Assembly: GCA_035533755.1 (NCBI GenBank)
Contig: DATLTC010000038.1
Coordinates: 1-56,178 of the forward strand
Origin: Gemmatimonadaceae bacterium
Lineage (GTDB): Bacteria > Gemmatimonadota > Gemmatimonadetes > Gemmatimonadales > Gemmatimonadaceae
Direction of reading: 5' to 3'
DNA length: 56,178 bases
The position numbers were made by a program, and so were the translations under genes. Below are positions 22,250-29,476 of this stretch, in pieces (positions within the stretch are counted from its first letter, which is position 1; each line of letters begins with the position of its first letter). Under the pieces are notes generated by a model, which had not been told where the DNA came from, made no database searches, and was given only the letters and a program-made list of their open reading frames with translations.

Positions 22250-24088
22250 ATGCCGCCCACGCTTCCGCCCGCACCCACCGCGACCTCCCCAAAACCCTTC
22301 GCCACCTCGGCGAGCGCGCTCTCCATGCGGCTCGTGCCGCTCTCGGCGCTTGCCGCGGCCATCATCCTGATCCCCCTGGCGATGTTCGCCAACCGCGAGA
22401 TGGCGCGGTCGCTCCGCGCCCAGGCGGATTCCCGCCTGGCCACGGTGGCCAGGCGCTACGCGGCCCTCACCCTGGCGGTGGCGGCGGAACGACCCGGCGC
22501 CGCCGGCCCGGCCAGCCTCGCGGCCGACTCCGTGCTGCGGTCCACGCTCCAGGGGGTGTTCGCCACCGGTTCGGTGTCGGAGATCGGGGTGGAGCTGGCC
22601 GATTCCTCCGGCAAGGTGCTGATCGCCTCGCGCAACGCCACCAGCGACGACCTCCGCGCGTTTGCCGGCGCCGTCCGCATGCCCGGCGACACCGCGTTCA
22701 CGTACGTCGGATCGCGGGGCCCCGAACGGGGCGCGCTGGCCACGGCCAACCTGGGCCAGTGGGTGATTCTGGCGCACGAGACCGTGGTCGACGCCGACGC
22801 CACCTACCGGCAGGTGCGCGCCTTCCTGGTCGGGCTGGCCGCGTTCCTGTTCGCGATCATGGTCGGCATCGGATTCGTGGTGGACCGGCTGGTGAACCGG
22901 CGCATCCGGCAGCCGGCCATGGAACTGGCCGCCCTCGCCGAAGCGGTGGCGGCCGGCGATCTCACGGTGCGGGTGACCGGCGTACGGTCCACCGACGAGA
23001 TCGAGCGGCTCGCCCGCGCCCTCGCCAAGATGGTGAGCGAACTCGGCAGGCTGGCCCGCGCGCTCACCGATTCGGCGCACGAGACGGCCACCATGTCGTC
23101 CCAGATCACGACCAGCTCCGAGGAGATGTCCAGCTCCGCCGGCCAGATCGCCCACACGGCCAGCGATCTGAGCACCCAATCCGGCGCCATGGCGGAGTCC
23201 ATCCAGTCCCTGGCCGCCGCAGCCGTGAACCTGGGGCCGTTGGCCGCCCGCATGGACGCCGGCGCCCACGAGGGCGTTGCCCGCAACGCGCGGCTCCGCG
23301 ATCTGGCGCTCGAGAACCGCCGCCAGATGGACGACAGCACCGGCGCCCTTGCCGCCCTCACCGACGACGTCGCCGCCAGCGCCGCCGCGGTGCGCGCCCT
23401 GGTGGACGCGTCGCAGGAGATCCGCACCTTCGTCACGCTGGTACAGTCGCTGGCCCGCCATTCCAAGCTGCTCGCCCTCAACGCTGCCATGGAGGCGGCC
23501 CGCGCCGGCGAGCAGGGCGAGGGATTCTCCGTGGTCGCCGCCGAAGTGCGCCGCCTGTCGACCATGTCGTCGGACGCGGCCGAGCGCACGCAGCGCGTGG
23601 TGGCCGACGTGCTGGCCGGCGTGGAGCGCTCCAGCGAGAGCATGGACCGGATGGCCGCCACGGCGCGCGACGTGCGGCGCGCCACCGAGCAGGGTTCCGC
23701 CTCGTTCCGCCAGCTCGAGACCAGCGTGGCGGAGCTCGAGGCATGGACATCGTCCATCGAACTGGCCGCGGCCAGCACCAACACCGTGGTCCGCGAGATC
23801 ACCGACCGCCTGGACGCGATCGCCCGCGGCACCGAGACGTTCGCCGCCGCCATGCAGCAGGTGGCCGCGGCCAGCGAGCAGCAGAGCGCCAGCACCGAGG
23901 AGATCGCCGCCGCGGCGGGCACGATGGCGCACGCCGCCGAACGGCTGGCCAGACTCGTGTCCAACCTGCGGATCGGCGACGCGCGGCCGAGCGGCGAGAC
24001 GCGCACCGGCCGCGCGAGCGGCCCCGCGCCGGCGCGCACCAGCGGCGCCACCAGCGGCGCCACCAGCGGCGCCTCGGTGCTGCGCTGA
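22250..24088 (+). CDS. methyl-accepting chemotaxis protein
   Basis: Transmembrane chemoreceptor, 612 residues. TM1 (about 30-50), a short periplasmic sensor (about 50-195) of unrecognised type, TM2 (about 198-220), a HAMP domain (Asp-Leu-Thr-Val-Arg-Val near 245), and a long signalling coiled coil. The hairpin tip is ALNAAMEAARAGEQGEGFSV, diagnostic of MCPs. The C-terminal tail is a low-complexity Ser-Gly-Ala-Thr repeat and has no NWETF-type CheR-binding pentapeptide. No other che gene is in the window. The start at 22250 gives a Pro-rich N-tail; the internal ATG at residue 26 (22325), just before TM1, is an alternative. Confidence 0.92.
   Translation: MPPTLPPAPTATSPKPFATSASALSMRLVPLSALAAAIILIPLAMFANREMARSLRAQADSRLATVARRYAALTLAVAAERPGAAGPASLAADSVLRSTLQGVFATGSVSEIGVELADSSGKVLIASRNATSDDLRAFAGAVRMPGDTAFTYVGSRGPERGALATANLGQWVILAHETVVDADATYRQVRAFLVGLAAFLFAIMVGIGFVVDRLVNRRIRQPAMELAALAEAVAAGDLTVRVTGVRSTDEIERLARALAKMVSELGRLARALTDSAHETATMSSQITTSSEEMSSSAGQIAHTASDLSTQSGAMAESIQSLAAAAVNLGPLAARMDAGAHEGVARNARLRDLALENRRQMDDSTGALAALTDDVAASAAAVRALVDASQEIRTFVTLVQSLARHSKLLALNAAMEAARAGEQGEGFSVVAAEVRRLSTMSSDAAERTQRVVADVLAGVERSSESMDRMAATARDVRRATEQGSASFRQLETSVAELEAWTSSIELAAASTNTVVREITDRLDAIARGTETFAAAMQQVAAASEQQSASTEEIAAAAGTMAHAAERLARLVSNLRIGDARPSGETRTGRASGPAPARTSGATSGATSGASVLR
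24038..24073 (+). repeat. 12-base tandem repeat in the MCP 3' end (3 copies)
   Basis: Three perfect copies of ACCAGCGGCGCC encode Thr-Ser-Gly-Ala repeats in the receptor's C-terminal tail. Probably slippage-prone. Confidence 0.9.
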
Positions 24089-24101
24089 CCGGCTAGCGCA
24101 G
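24080..24101. terminator. hairpin spanning two convergent stop codons
   Basis: A 7-bp perfect stem (CTGCGCT with AGCGCAG) around an 8-base loop contains both the chemoreceptor stop and the aminotransferase stop. No T-run follows on either strand, so it is a weak terminator candidate. Confidence 0.35.
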
Positions 24102-25178
24102 GGCGCGGATCACGCGCCCCATCACGTCGAGCAGGACCTCGAGGCCCTGCACGGTGTGATCGCCCATGTGGCCCACGCGCACCGTGGTCTTGCGCAGCTC
24201 GTCATGGCCCGGCCCGATCACGTAGCCCTGCTCGTTGAGCGTGCGCACCACCGCCTCGGGATGGTCGCAGAGCAGGCAGGTGACCGTGGGCGAGCGCGCG
24301 CCGTCGCGGGCCAGCACGTCCACGCCCAGGCCGGCGTTGGGCAGCCCCTCGGCCCAATCCCAGCAGGCGCGCGCCATGCGCGCGTGCCGCTCGAACCGCG
24401 CCCCCAGGCCCTCGAGCTCGATGTCCGCCAGTTGGCGATCGAGCGCGTACAGCAGCGGAATGGGCGGCGTGGTGGGGCTCTGCGCCTTGTGCCAGAAATC
24501 GTCGTAGCGCGCGAGATCGAGCGCGTACCCGCGGTCGAACAACCCCCGCGCGCGATTGAGCAGACGCTCCGACGCGGCCACGAACGCCAGGCCCGGGGGC
24601 AGCGCCAGCGCCTTCTGCGATCCCGTGAACACGAGGTCGGCGCCCCAGGCGTCCATCTCCACCGGCATCGCCCCCACGCTCGTCACCCCGTCCACGAGCA
24701 GCATCGCGCTCGACGCCTCGTGCACCACGCGCGCGATGCCGGCCACGTCGCTGAGCGCGCCGGTGGACGTCTCCGAATGCACCACCGTCACCGTGTCGTA
24801 CGTGCCGTGCTCGAGCGCCAGCCGCACCTGCTCCGGCGACACCGTCTCCCCCGGCTCGGCGATCACCCGCGTCACGTCGCGCCCGGTGAGCTCGGCGATC
24901 TCGGCGAACCGTTCGCCGAACGCGCCGCACACCAGCGCCAGCACCCGGTCGATGCTCCCGCACCGCACCGCCATCTCCATCGCCGCCGTGGCCGATCCGC
25001 CCACCACGTACACCGGCCGCGCGGTGCCGAACAGCGGATGCAGCCGTCCGTGGATCGTGCGCATGAGCAGTTCCATGGCGGCGCTGCGGTGCGAGATCAT
25101 CGGATGGCACATCGCCTCCAACACCTCGGGGCGCACCTGCGTGGGGCCGGGCAGGAAGAACCGCTCGTCGCCCATCAT
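24093..25178 (-). CDS. class V aminotransferase (serine-pyruvate / alanine-glyoxylate type)
   Basis: PLP aminotransferase of 361 residues. Landmarks: Phe-Leu-Pro-Gly-Pro-Thr-Gln-Val at the N-terminus, Met-Ile-Ser-His-Arg-Ser, Val-Asp-Gly-Val-Thr-Ser-Val-Gly-Ala, and the PLP-lysine Gly-Ser-Gln-Lys-Ala-Leu-Ala-Leu-Pro-Pro-Gly. Likely reactions are alanine-glyoxylate or serine-pyruvate transamination; the phosphoserine type is less likely without its motifs. Its start overlaps the stop of the channel gene (ATGA, 25175-25178), so it is translated from the same message. A second Met follows immediately (25175). Confidence 0.87.
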   Translation of the reverse strand: MMGDERFFLPGPTQVRPEVLEAMCHPMISHRSAAMELLMRTIHGRLHPLFGTARPVYVVGGSATAAMEMAVRCGSIDRVLALVCGAFGERFAEIAELTGRDVTRVIAEPGETVSPEQVRLALEHGTYDTVTVVHSETSTGALSDVAGIARVVHEASSAMLLVDGVTSVGAMPVEMDAWGADLVFTGSQKALALPPGLAFVAASERLLNRARGLFDRGYALDLARYDDFWHKAQSPTTPPIPLLYALDRQLADIELEGLGARFERHARMARACWDWAEGLPNAGLGVDVLARDGARSPTVTCLLCDHPEAVVRTLNEQGYVIGPGHDELRKTTVRVGHMGDHTVQGLEVLLDVMGRVIRALR

Positions 25179-26239
25179 GCGCCCGCCGTCGCCGGGGCCG
25201 CTTCGCACGCCGCGCGCAGCGCGCGCACCGTGGCCGGGTCGCCCATCACGATCAGCACCGACCCCACGTCCAGCCGCACCTCCGGCGACGGATTGTACGT
25301 GTACGCCTGGCTGCCCGGCTCGTGCACCGCCAGCACCAGCGCCTTGGTGCGCGCGTGCAGATCGAGTTCGAGCAGCGAGCGCCCCACGAACGGCGAGTCC
25401 GGCGGCACCGTCACCTCCTCGATGCGGAGGTTCTTGTTGGTGTCGCGCAGCATCATGTCGAGAAAACTCACCACGCTCGGGCGCACCAGTTCGCTCGCCA
25501 TGCGCATGCCGCCGATCAGCGCCGGCGACACCACGCCATCCGCGCCCGCCTGGCGCAGCCGCGAGATCGACCGCTCCTGTCCCGCCCGCGCGATCACGCG
25601 GATGCCGGGCGCCAGTTGCCGCGCCGTGACCGTGGTGACCAGCGAGTCCTTGTCGAGCGTCGTGCACACCACGATGCCCGCCGCCCGCGCCACGCCCGCC
25701 TGCAGCAGCACCTGGTCGTCGGTGAAATCGGCCTGCAGGATCGGCACGTCCGGAAACTCCTCCTCGATGCGCTTCACCCGGGCTTCGTTGTGCTCGATCG
25801 CCACCACGGGGCGCTCCGTCTTCACCAGTTCGCGCAGCACCGCGATCCCCGTCGCCCCCACCCCGCAGACGATGTAGTGCTCCTCCATCTCCTTGATCGT
25901 CAGACGCATGCGCCGTCTCCTGAACCCCTGGGTCAAATCGCCTTCGACGACGAACGCCGTCACCACCGAGATCGCGTACACCACCGTGCTCGCCCCGAAG
26001 AACAACAGCGCCACGGTGAACGCCATCACGCCGCTGCTCCGCGACACGTCGATCGGCCCCGTGAATCCCGCCGTGGTCAGCACCGTCGCCGTGGCGTATA
26101 CGGCCTCGATCCACGTGGTGCCGGGGCCGCCCAATGCGTGATACCCGAACACGCCGATCAGGAACGTCGTGGCCACCGCACCGGCAGCCACCGCCAGCCG
26201 CTGCCGGAGATCGTCGAGGGTCGTCCCGCGACTGCTCAT
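25175..26239 (-). CDS. two-TM ion channel with RCK (TrkA-N/TrkA-C) domains
   Basis: Predicted gated cation channel subunit, 354 residues, MthK-like layout: TM1 (about 15-37), a pore loop, TM2 (about 70-98), a TrkA-N nucleotide-binding RCK domain (from 121, with GVGATG at 126-131 and acidic Glu in Ala-Ile-Glu-His-Asn), then TrkA-C (about 255-345). The pore filter reads Thr-Thr-Ala-Gly-Phe-Thr-Gly (55-61) where potassium channels have Thr-Val-Gly-Tyr-Gly-Asp. The second filter glycine is replaced by Thr, so potassium selectivity is doubtful. It overlaps the aminotransferase gene by four bases and starts 1 base after the asparaginase stop. Confidence 0.85.
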   Translation of the reverse strand: MSSRGTTLDDLRQRLAVAAGAVATTFLIGVFGYHALGGPGTTWIEAVYATATVLTTAGFTGPIDVSRSSGVMAFTVALLFFGASTVVYAISVVTAFVVEGDLTQGFRRRRMRLTIKEMEEHYIVCGVGATGIAVLRELVKTERPVVAIEHNEARVKRIEEEFPDVPILQADFTDDQVLLQAGVARAAGIVVCTTLDKDSLVTTVTARQLAPGIRVIARAGQERSISRLRQAGADGVVSPALIGGMRMASELVRPSVVSFLDMMLRDTNKNLRIEEVTVPPDSPFVGRSLLELDLHARTKALVLAVHEPGSQAYTYNPSPEVRLDVGSVLIVMGDPATVRALRAACEAAPATAGA

Positions 26240-26240
26240 C

Positions 26241-27458
26241 TCACCGCGGAATGACCAGCGTCCCCGACATCGCGTGGCCCTTGGGCCGCTGATCGGCCGT
26301 GAACAGATACGCGAATGGCTCCATCCGCGGCCCCTTCTCGTCGCATACCGCGAACGACGTCGGCCGATCGGGGTCGGCGCTCTGATACGCGCACGCCGCC
26401 GCGTACTCGCCCTTCTTGTTCACCGCGTAGTACTCGAGGTCGAAGTACGGCCGGCCGTGCTCGTCGAGCAGCCGCGCTTCCGTCATCGCGATCACCCGTT
26501 CCATCACCTGCATCACCGCCTGCTGCGGCGACATCCCCTGCCGCATGAACTCCACGGCCAGGAACGCCCCGCACACCTTCATGTTCGCCTCGCCGCGCCC
26601 CGTCGACCCCGCCGCCCCCACCGCGTTGTCGCAGTACTGGCCCGCGCCGATGATCGGCGAATCGCCCACCCGCCCCGGAATCTTCCACGACAGCCCGCTC
26701 GTCGTCGTCACCGAGGCGATGTCGCCGCTCGCCGTCACCGCGTTCATGTTGATCGTCCCGTAGGTGTGCGGCACGCCGTGCGCGTCGTAGAACACGTGCG
26801 CCGTCTGCACCTCGTCGTCGTCGCGGCCGCGCCCGCCGCCGCGCGCCGGCTGGCGCGACGGAAGGTTCAGCCAGTTGTCATCGGGATTGAGATCGGCCTT
26901 CCACCGCAGCCAGTCCTGCCGGCTCTTCTCGGTGAGCAGATTCTGCGGCTTGAACCCCATCTCGATCGCGAACTGCCGCGCGCCCCGGTCCACGAGGAAG
27001 ATGTGGTCCGTGAAGTCCATCACCGCCTTGGCCACCGACGACGCCGTGGCGATGTCTTCGAGACACCCCACCGCCCCCGCCCGCTTGGTGGGCCCGTGCA
27101 TGCACGACGCGTCCAGCTGCACCACGCCGTCCTCGTTCGGCAATCCGCCCAGCCCCACCGACTGATCGTCCGGGTTCAACTCCACGATGTTGACGCCGGC
27201 GATCACGGCATCGAGCGGATCGGCGCCCGCGGCGAGGAGATCGTACGCCACCTTGATCCCCTGCTTGCCGTTCTGGTCCTTGGTCAACCCGTTGCCCGCC
27301 GAGATGATCACCGGGCGGGAGGCCGGCGCGCCGCGCCGCGCGTCCGCGCGGTCGACGATCGACGAGAGCACCGGCTCGGCGCCGGCGATGTGCGGCAGCG
27401 CCAGGCCCGCCGCGGCCGCGGCCCCTGCGCCGATGAAATCACGACGGGAAATCGACAC
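26241..27458 (-). CDS. Tat-exported glycosylasparaginase / isoaspartyl-type Ntn-hydrolase
   Basis: Asparaginase-2 family enzyme, 405 residues, probably N4-(beta-N-acetylglucosaminyl)-asparaginase or L-asparaginase. The N-terminus has a twin-arginine signal (Ser-Arg-Arg-Asp-Phe-Ile-Gly). The predicted self-cleavage site is Gly-Thr-Ile-Asn with Thr about 235 as nucleophile. The substrate pocket Gly-Arg-Val-Gly-Asp-Ser-Pro and Gly-Ala-Gly-Gln-Tyr-Cys-Asp follow, as in the family. The residue after Thr-Ile is Asn rather than Gly. A Gly/Arg/Asp-rich linker (about 203-216) precedes the cleavage site and may be trimmed. It is divergent from the aspartase fusion and upstream of the channel gene. Product would be aspartate in the periplasm. 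Confidence 0.88.
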   Translation of the reverse strand: MSISRRDFIGAGAAAAAGLALPHIAGAEPVLSSIVDRADARRGAPASRPVIISAGNGLTKDQNGKQGIKVAYDLLAAGADPLDAVIAGVNIVELNPDDQSVGLGGLPNEDGVVQLDASCMHGPTKRAGAVGCLEDIATASSVAKAVMDFTDHIFLVDRGARQFAIEMGFKPQNLLTEKSRQDWLRWKADLNPDDNWLNLPSRQPARGGGRGRDDDEVQTAHVFYDAHGVPHTYGTINMNAVTASGDIASVTTTSGLSWKIPGRVGDSPIIGAGQYCDNAVGAAGSTGRGEANMKVCGAFLAVEFMRQGMSPQQAVMQVMERVIAMTEARLLDEHGRPYFDLEYYAVNKKGEYAAACAYQSADPDRPTSFAVCDEKGPRMEPFAYLFTADQRPKGHAMSGTLVIPR

Positions 27459-27607: not shown

Positions 27608-29476
27608 ATGATTTCCAACGCCTGGCAGGAGCAGCTCGCGGGGATCCCCTTCTTCGAGAGCCTGCCCGATTCCCTCCGCTGGCAGCTCGTTCGCGCCGCC
27701 GTGCCCACCACGTACGAAGCCGGCGCGATGCTGTTCCGCGACGGCGACGCCCGCGACTTCTTCGCCGTCCTGCTCAGCGGCAGCGTGGCCATCGAACACG
27801 CCACCAGCGCCACCCCGCTGGCCACCCTCGGCGCCGGCGACGTGGTAGGTGAAGGCGCGCTGCTCGACGACTCGCCCCACGGCACCTCGGGGCGCGCCCT
27901 CGTCGCCACCGAAGCGCTCGTGTTCCACCGGGCGCGGTTCGAGCCGCTCCTCAAGGACTCGCCCGCCCTCCATGCGGCCCTCGTCACCCGCGCCGCCCGC
28001 GCCATCGCCCAGCGCCTCAAGGCCGCCGACGCCACCCTCGCCGGCCGCGGCCGCGCCATGGGATTCTCGGGCGGCGAGACCCGCCGGGAGCACGACCTCC
28101 TCGGCGACCGCGACGTGCCCGCCGAGGCGCTGTACGGCGTGCAGACGCTGCGCGCGCTGGAGAACTTCCCGATCACCGGCGTGCCGATCCGCGAATTCCC
28201 GTCGCTCGTCGACGCCATGGCCGCCGTGAAGTCGGCGGCCGCCCGCGCCAACGCCGACCTCGGGTTCCTGCCGCGCGACGTCGCCCAGGCGATCGACGAC
28301 GCCGCGGGCGAGATCCGCGCCGGCCGTCACCATGAGCACTTCCTCGTGGACGCCATCCAGGGCGGGGCCGGCACCTCGACGAACATGAATGCCAACGAGG
28401 TCATCGCCAACCGCGCCCTGGAGCTGCTGGGCAAGCCCCGCGGCGACTACGCCGTGGTGCATCCCAACAACCACGTGAACCTCAGCCAGTCCACCAACGA
28501 CGTCTATCCCACGGCGGTGAAGCTGGCCCTCCACACGAGCATCGACGGGCTCCGCGCCGCGATGCGCGAACTCGTGGACGCCTTCCTCGCCAAGGGCGAG
28601 GAGTTCGCGCCCCACATCAAAATGGGACGCACCCAGCTCCAGGACGCCGTCCCGATGACCCTCGGCCAGGAGTTCTCGGCGTTCGGCCACACCATTCTGG
28701 AGGACGTGGACCGCCTGGGCGAAGCGCAGGCCCTGATTCGCGAGATCAACATGGGCGCCACGGCCATCGGCACCGGGATCAACGCCCCGCCGGGCTACGC
28801 CGAAGCCGTGCGCGTCCACCTCTCGGCCATCACCGGCCTGCCGCTCATCACCGCCCCCGATCTGGTCGAGGCCACCTCGGATACCGGCTCCTTCGTGCAG
28901 CTGTCCGGCGTGCTCAAGCGCTGCGCCGTCAAGCTGTCCAAGATCTGCAACGACCTCCGCCTGCTCAGTTCCGGTCCGCGCACGGGCCTGGGCGAGATCA
29001 ACCTGCCCGCCATGCAGCCAGGGTCGTCGATCATGCCCGGCAAGGTCAATCCGGTGATCCCCGAGGTGGTGAACCAGGTCTGTTTCGACGTCATCGGCGG
29101 CGACGTGACGGTGACCATGGCCGCCGAGGCGGGCCAGCTCCAGCTCAATGTGTTCGAGCCTGTCATCGCGTACCGGTTGCTGCGCAGCGTGGACACGCTG
29201 CGCAATGCGTGCGTGGTCCTGCGCGAGCGGTGCGTGACGGGGATCACCGCCAACCCCAAGCGCATGCGCGACTTCGTGGAACACTCCATCGGCATCGTCA
29301 CCGCGCTCGTGCCGGTGATCGGCTACGAGCGGGCCACGCAGATCGCCAAGACGGCGCTCGACACCGGCCGTGGCGTCACCGAACTGGTGCTCGAACAGAA
29401 ACTCCTCACCCGCGCACAGATCGACGAGATCCTCGATCCGGAGCGGATGACGGCTCCCCGAACCACCACGTCGTAG
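27608..29476 (+). CDS. cyclic-nucleotide-binding-like domain fused to aspartate ammonia-lyase
   Basis: Converts L-aspartate to fumarate and ammonia, here with an extra regulatory module. 622 residues versus about 470 for ordinary AspA. Residues 10-140 form a cNMP-binding beta-roll plus C-helix: Pro-Phe-Phe-Glu-Ser-Leu-Pro at the start, Leu-Phe-Arg-Asp-Gly-Asp, and phosphate cassette GEGALLDDSPH at 81-91. The cassette's usual Arg is His91. Residues 158-615 are the lyase: YGVQTLRALENFPITG, HPNNHVNLSQSTND (285-298) and the active-site loop GSSIMPGKVNP (472-482). The QSTND and ENFPITG forms favour aspartase over fumarase. One uninterrupted frame with no internal start before the lyase; a true fusion by sequence. 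Confidence 0.93.
   Translation: MISNAWQEQLAGIPFFESLPDSLRWQLVRAAVPTTYEAGAMLFRDGDARDFFAVLLSGSVAIEHATSATPLATLGAGDVVGEGALLDDSPHGTSGRALVATEALVFHRARFEPLLKDSPALHAALVTRAARAIAQRLKAADATLAGRGRAMGFSGGETRREHDLLGDRDVPAEALYGVQTLRALENFPITGVPIREFPSLVDAMAAVKSAAARANADLGFLPRDVAQAIDDAAGEIRAGRHHEHFLVDAIQGGAGTSTNMNANEVIANRALELLGKPRGDYAVVHPNNHVNLSQSTNDVYPTAVKLALHTSIDGLRAAMRELVDAFLAKGEEFAPHIKMGRTQLQDAVPMTLGQEFSAFGHTILEDVDRLGEAQALIREINMGATAIGTGINAPPGYAEAVRVHLSAITGLPLITAPDLVEATSDTGSFVQLSGVLKRCAVKLSKICNDLRLLSSGPRTGLGEINLPAMQPGSSIMPGKVNPVIPEVVNQVCFDVIGGDVTVTMAAEAGQLQLNVFEPVIAYRLLRSVDTLRNACVVLRERCVTGITANPKRMRDFVEHSIGIVTALVPVIGYERATQIAKTALDTGRGVTELVLEQKLLTRAQIDEILDPERMTAPRTTTS

Follow-up and report, generated by a model that had tools for sequence, protein, structure and literature searches.

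A 2TM-RCK channel-like protein of a Gemmatimonadaceae bacterium with an altered selectivity filter that lacks the second glycine

The second glycine of the selectivity filter is part of the signature by which K+ channels are recognized. The window analyzed here, a 56,178-nucleotide stretch from a Gemmatimonadaceae bacterium (assembly GCA_035533755.1, contig DATLTC010000038.1), encodes an RCK channel-like protein whose pore loop reads TTAGFTG, which raises the question of what such a pore conducts, if it conducts at all. On the basis of the comparisons reported here, we postulate, tentatively and with somewhat less than even confidence, that the protein forms an RCK-gated tetramer that passes cations with relaxed selectivity. 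It would belong to a "2TM-RCK, TxG(Y/F)xE" subfamily that needs only the first of the two filter glycines. The features of the locus are listed in Table 1.

Table 1. Features of the channel locus (window coordinates)
Feature	Coordinates	Strand	Basis or remark
2TM-RCK channel-like protein, 354 aa	25175..26239	-	ORF, Pfam and structure alignments
Selectivity-filter segment TTAGFTG, residues 55-61	26057..26077	-	T60 at the second-glycine position, G61 at the Asp/Glu position
RCK part, residue 122 to end	25175..25876	-	TrkA_N 122-239, TrkA_C 274-343
TAT-exported asparaginase (Asparaginase_2)	26241..27458	-	Closest solved structures are glycosylasparaginases
Class-V aminotransferase	24093..25178	-	Start codon (ATG) overlaps the channel gene's end
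Aspartate ammonia-lyase with N-terminal cyclic-nucleotide-binding domain	27608..29476	+	TIGR00839 above cut-off; divergent from the asparaginase
Methyl-accepting chemotaxis protein (HAMP, MCPsignal)	22250-24088	+	Faces the aminotransferase gene

Translation of the channel ORF, which contains VLTTAGFTGPIDV, bore out at its exact coordinates the altered filter described in an earlier note on this sequence. The same note held that the transmembrane (TM) and RCK layout of a channel was retained, and our data agree: the alignment to MthK spans residues 23 to 343, reaching from TM helix 1 through the whole RCK region (E value of 4e-24 with the single sequence and 5e-58 with a profile), and TrkA_N (6e-29) and TrkA_C (2e-14) both scored above the Pfam cut-offs. 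The protein carries a C-terminal RCK domain of the MthK type and, from the MthK alignment and hydropathy peaks at approximately residues 13 to 34 and 70 to 100, two TM helices with a pore loop; the two-glycine TVGYGD-type signature is absent (TAGFTG). The score for the pore domain Ion_trans_2 (17.6 bits) fell below the Pfam cut-off of 22.5, there was no match to TrkH in Pfam, and cNMP_binding gave no match at an E value of ≤0.001. A structure model built from three sequences, with a mean pLDDT of 52.6 and values under 50 across residues 1 to 115, contained helices at residues 8 to 35, 42 to 56, 69 to 80, and 83 to 98; together with the hydropathy profile, this low-confidence model would place TTAGFTG between two TM helices and behind a pore helix. 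Judged from its domains, the protein probably works like an RCK-gated channel, yet it fails the K+ channel signature. Two named relatives, both from Gemmatimonadota metagenome-assembled genomes, are 82 to 83% identical to it.

Which residue stands at which filter position depends on the alignment register. When 29 relatives were combined in a profile, its alignment to MthK had no gap and set TTVGFREV over ATVGYGDY, whereas single-sequence phmmer alignments introduced a one-residue gap after GF (GF-T-G over GF-G or GY-G). The gapless register is favored on the evidence of close relatives with the same length, whose filters read TTAGFREAIDV or TTVGFREAITI; therefore, T60 occupies the position of the second glycine, as the earlier note had proposed, G61 that of the acidic Asp/Glu residue, and P62 the next one. 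A one-residue insertion in the filter, as implied by phmmer, is disfavored, since the equal-length relatives align without it. A sequencing or frame error was rejected, because the motif TTAGF(T/S)GP is common to three species at a dN/dS of about 0.2.

To place this filter among its homologues, 395 Gemmatimonadota genomes were drawn, 140 of which had a match at an E value of ≤1e-30. The loci examined numbered 110, taken from 108 of the 140 matching genomes, together with two named loci and two plasmid relatives; from these 114 loci, the window's own copy (L001) and five loci with a missing pore or fragmentary sequence (L090, L103, L105, L111, and L112) were removed and the window was added, giving a tree of 109 rows that represent 108 distinct proteins (L002 and L032 encode an identical protein), 106 of them from Gemmatimonadota. 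L118, which is identical to part of L031, and L119 lie outside the tree, which was built without columns 52 to 70.

The two filter glycines behaved very differently in this set. Position 58, the first glycine, is Gly in 107 of the 108 proteins and Pro in the remaining one, whereas position 60 is Gly in only 22; the other residues found there are R (27 proteins), Q (10), S (9), E (9), K (8), H (8), M (6), T (3), D (3), N (2), and A (1). With a Shannon entropy of 3.13 bits, position 60 is the most variable of residues 43 to 66, while position 61 is Glu in 100 proteins. On the unrooted tree, where gain and loss of the glycine are indistinguishable, position 60 must have switched between Gly and another residue at least 11 times. 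Two points extend the earlier description: the acidic residue that follows the second glycine has changed in the channel as well, and loss of the second glycine is the rule among its relatives (86/108). The glycine is absent from all 34 rows of the window's clade, which have R, K, T, or S instead, and is kept in 12 of 15 rows of the sister clade, all except L038 (S), L042 (T), and L056 (N). In one homologue, L011, even the first filter glycine is gone (TTTPLREA, aligned to window residues 55 to 61).

From a tblastn search of plasmids, two full-length relatives were read, from Rhodococcus (STVGFREV) and Hymenobacter (SGGGYEV); the filter of the latter (L116, 2809-3861, plus strand) reads SGGGYEVLRPL, another departure from TVGYGE. 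Nine of 60 listed distant plasmid RCK proteins (L136 to L144) were examined, and eight have Gly at the second position (TTTGFGGD in L136, TTVGYGE in L138, and GYGD in L139 to L144), while L137 had no filter matching the search pattern; therefore, the second glycine appears to be usual outside the close family. Two scans of viral_contigs found no relative.

Among the proteins compared, the form of the filter seen in the window is confined to its genus. Conservation of TAGFTG, which the earlier note had suggested as a check, held within the genus, where all three gene-bearing genomes have the motif with T (two genomes) or S (one), and did not hold outside it, where the second-glycine position is R, G, Q, S, E, K, H, M, D, N, A, or T. 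G61 occurs in 3 of the 108 rows, all from this genus; P62 together with T/S at position 60 is peculiar to it, and position 49 is A or T there, compared with Met in 104/108 of the family. Among the three species, the whole-gene dN/dS was 0.21 to 0.22 (dS, 0.55 to 0.58), and the gene is therefore kept by selection in the genus; for residues 50 to 66, the ratio was 0.09 to 0.17, a rough value from 17 codons. Against the next relatives, L003 and L004, the whole-gene ratios were 0.45 and 0.33, and those for residues 50 to 66 were 0.20 and 0.57, respectively. Along the branch that leads to the genus, constraint may have been weaker or change may have been adaptive. The gene is present in three of the four genomes of the genus. 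In the fourth (L128, 4679-4750), a 23-codon ORF lies between the asparaginase and aminotransferase genes in place of a full channel gene, and by eye 7 of its first 11 residues match the beginning of the channel in the window; an internal deletion seems to have removed the channel from this genome.

The channel differs from MthK in its filter (TAGFTG versus TVGYGD) and, in the profile alignment, in the strand that reads RIIAEAER in MthK and RVIARAGQ here. Acidic residues of the MthK AEAER strand serve as Ca2+ ligands, and with that strand changed to ARAGQ, MthK-type Ca2+ activation would seem unlikely for this channel. A GVGATG motif followed by Glu149 suggests that a nucleotide may be the ligand. 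The best phmmer match was 4gx5, named "TrkA domain protein" (E value of 1.5e-28), whose pore TTLGFGD aligns with that of the channel; the entries of this name, PDB 4gx0-4gx5, are GsuK. Unlike the channel described here, GsuK, the dual-RCK K+ channel of Geobacter (PMC3510474), has two RCK domains per subunit and keeps the second glycine.

A likeness at position 60 is found in the CNG-type filter TIGETPPP, which has been put into NaK and has Thr where the NaK filter TVGDGNFS has its second glycine (PMC5052707). Both that filter and the one described here have Thr at this position and Pro shortly after; however, the channel has Phe where the CNG-type filter has Glu, its Pro comes one position later (T-G-P versus T-P), and it bears an RCK region and no cyclic-nucleotide domain, unlike CNG channels. 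The GF-T-G-P of the genus recalls, by analogy, the G-E-T-P filter of the non-selective CNG channels. NaKTs of Tsukamurella, a 2TM relative whose filter has changed strongly (PMGNGP), was shown to be a non-selective cation channel; it differs in that it keeps the glycine at the second position and has a Ca2+ site near the inner end of the filter (PMC5052707). The same filter position has been lost in GYX proteins of kinetoplastids and Trichomonas (GYSD/E or GYRD), which were suggested to be non-selective or non-functional; these are protozoan proteins, which the source sets against mammalian channel families (PMC3283738). In TrkHA, the conserved loop glycine corresponds to the first glycine of GYG (PMC9898762), and TrkHA has been called a non-selective cation channel (PMC6957272), whereas the corresponding glycines in the loops of KtrB and plant HKT proteins are reported to confer K+ selectivity, so that a K+-selective filter is possible with a single conserved glycine. 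Trk, Ktr, and HKT proteins differ from the channel in having four pore loops in a single chain rather than one loop per subunit.

How, then, would such a pore work? In the reading that we favor, the inner filter, formed by the backbone of T56-A57-G58-F59, would still bind cations, and its outer end would be rebuilt as T60-G61-P62, reminiscent of CNG-type pores; with its looser outer mouth, the pore would discriminate less sharply between K+, NH4+, Na+, and perhaps Cs+, and the RCK ring would open the inner gate upon binding of a cytoplasmic ligand. We infer the tetramer, conduction, the relaxed selectivity, and the ligand from the comparisons above. Relaxed selectivity is suggested by the disparity between the two glycines, with position 60 the most variable and repeatedly changed, and by the changes at positions 49, 60, 61, and 62 in a genus where the gene is under purifying selection. 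By analogy, the Thr of the CNG-type filter (PMC5052707), the report that mutations of the second glycine eliminate both K+ selectivity and function (PMC3283738), and the TrkHA precedent (PMC9898762, PMC6957272) would count on the same side; the earlier note had raised the possibility of a different permeant ion, and Thr at this position fits altered selectivity. Against it count F59, which resembles K+ channels and not the Glu of the CNG filter, the one-glycine filters of KtrB and HKT, which are reported to be K+ selective, and the higher dN/dS values toward L003 and L004, which would also be expected if constraint had partly loosened before the genus diverged.

It is also conceivable, although we consider it somewhat unlikely, that the channel is still K+ selective, its inner sites setting selectivity through the first glycine. 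Position 60 would then vary freely because it merely lines the outer mouth, and its variation while residues 55 to 59 stay filter-like is as expected from this explanation, as are the retention of the second glycine in most sister-clade rows and the reported Ktr/HKT precedent. It is harder to reconcile with the additional loss of Glu61 and gain of Pro62 in the window's genus, with the reported abolition of selectivity by second-glycine mutations (PMC3283738), or with the description of TrkHA as non-selective (PMC6957272). That the pore is non-conducting and the RCK part serves as a sensor or regulator, the other suggestion of the earlier note, we regard as improbable. Both the second glycine and the acidic residue are lost, the ratios against L003 and L004 are raised, and the gene is dispensable, since one of the four genomes of the genus is without it; however, both TM helices, the pore helix, and the first glycine are retained, and the pore segment has a low dN/dS within the genus, albeit over 17 codons only. 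Taken with the intact RCK region and the purifying selection on the gene within the genus, this conservation argues against a dead pore.

The gene neighborhood suggests a further explanation. Asparaginase, channel, and aminotransferase form a tightly packed gene row, in which the asparaginase stop codon lies one base before the channel ATG. Of the 34 distinct channel genes in the window's clade, 27 directly follow a same-strand asparaginase gene; this count derives from 35 loci, 28 of them with that arrangement, after removal of the duplicates L032 of L002 and L118 of L031 and addition of the window. The seven others are L010, with only 161 bases of upstream sequence, and six genes of genus g2. 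At none of 80 other loci was an asparaginase found beside the channel homologue by tblastn (E value of ≤1e-4) in flanks of up to 3 kb that were often ended by the contig. The asparaginase, which has a TAT signal and resembles glycosylasparaginases, is also present in family genomes without the channel (19 of the 21 genomes given had a match). The aspartase gene adjoins the asparaginase gene in several relatives too, and its fusion to a cNMP-binding domain is conserved, as the homologues in L031, L128, L129, and L133 align over nearly their full length. Several related loci have a relative of the chemotaxis protein in a comparable position.

Within the source genome, which is 98% complete and contains Kup, there was no match to TrkH or KdpA, and none to Amt in a search that was positive in 14/14 control genomes. 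The three channel-bearing genomes of the genus (98, 93, and 80% complete) had no Amt match, while the channel-free fourth, with the apparent 23-codon remnant, has Amt. Across 179 genomes of the family, Amt was found in 11 of 37 channel-bearing genomes (three of which, G401, G403, and G421, lie outside the loci read) versus 78 of 142 others (Fisher P of 0.009, uncorrected for shared descent or incomplete genomes). Inside genus g8, 3 of 12 channel-bearing genomes and one of the six channel-free genomes named have Amt, and inside g2 the counts are 3 of 6 and 2 of 4. A channel/Amt trade-off is therefore only weakly indicated, being seen in the window's genus and not holding across the family; since there is none inside g8 and g2, we offer it only as an alternative.

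In that alternative, the channel would serve as a path for NH4+ (and K+) in cells without Amt, the ammonium coming from the exported asparaginase and from the aspartase of the adjoining genes. The linkage to asparaginase in the clade and at no other loci, the aspartase next door, and the Amt pattern of the source genome and its genus all speak for it. We nevertheless consider it quite improbable: Amt is present in 11 of the 37 channel-bearing genomes, six g2 genes have no asparaginase neighbor, and NH4+ permeation is a guess from context. A combined form, an operon-encoded ammonium/potassium channel in which a relaxed, RCK-gated K+ channel scaffold would handle NH4+ from both neighboring enzymes and replace Amt in the genus, seems very improbable.

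GYX filters have already been noted in protozoa, so the bare idea of a filter without the second glycine is not new (PMC3283738). In the open-licence literature searched, which left most subscription papers outside its scope, we found no report of bacterial RCK channels without this glycine, nor of the bacterial family pattern or the genus-specific TGP change; the asparaginase linkage was likewise not found there, in searches aimed at other topics. With the first glycine nearly fixed and the second the most variable site of the pore loop (G, R, K, Q, S, E, H, M, T, D, N, and A), the family amounts to a natural mutant series that bears on which parts of the filter set selectivity, and its recurrent association with an exported asparaginase would give an unusual clue to the role of a bacterial RCK channel. 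The source genome also has a single ORF with an above-cut-off Ion_trans_2 match (L113, 880-1974, minus strand; 37.5 bits); its filter reads TIGYGN (ATIGYGNVVP), and by eye the protein has a Kir-like appearance.
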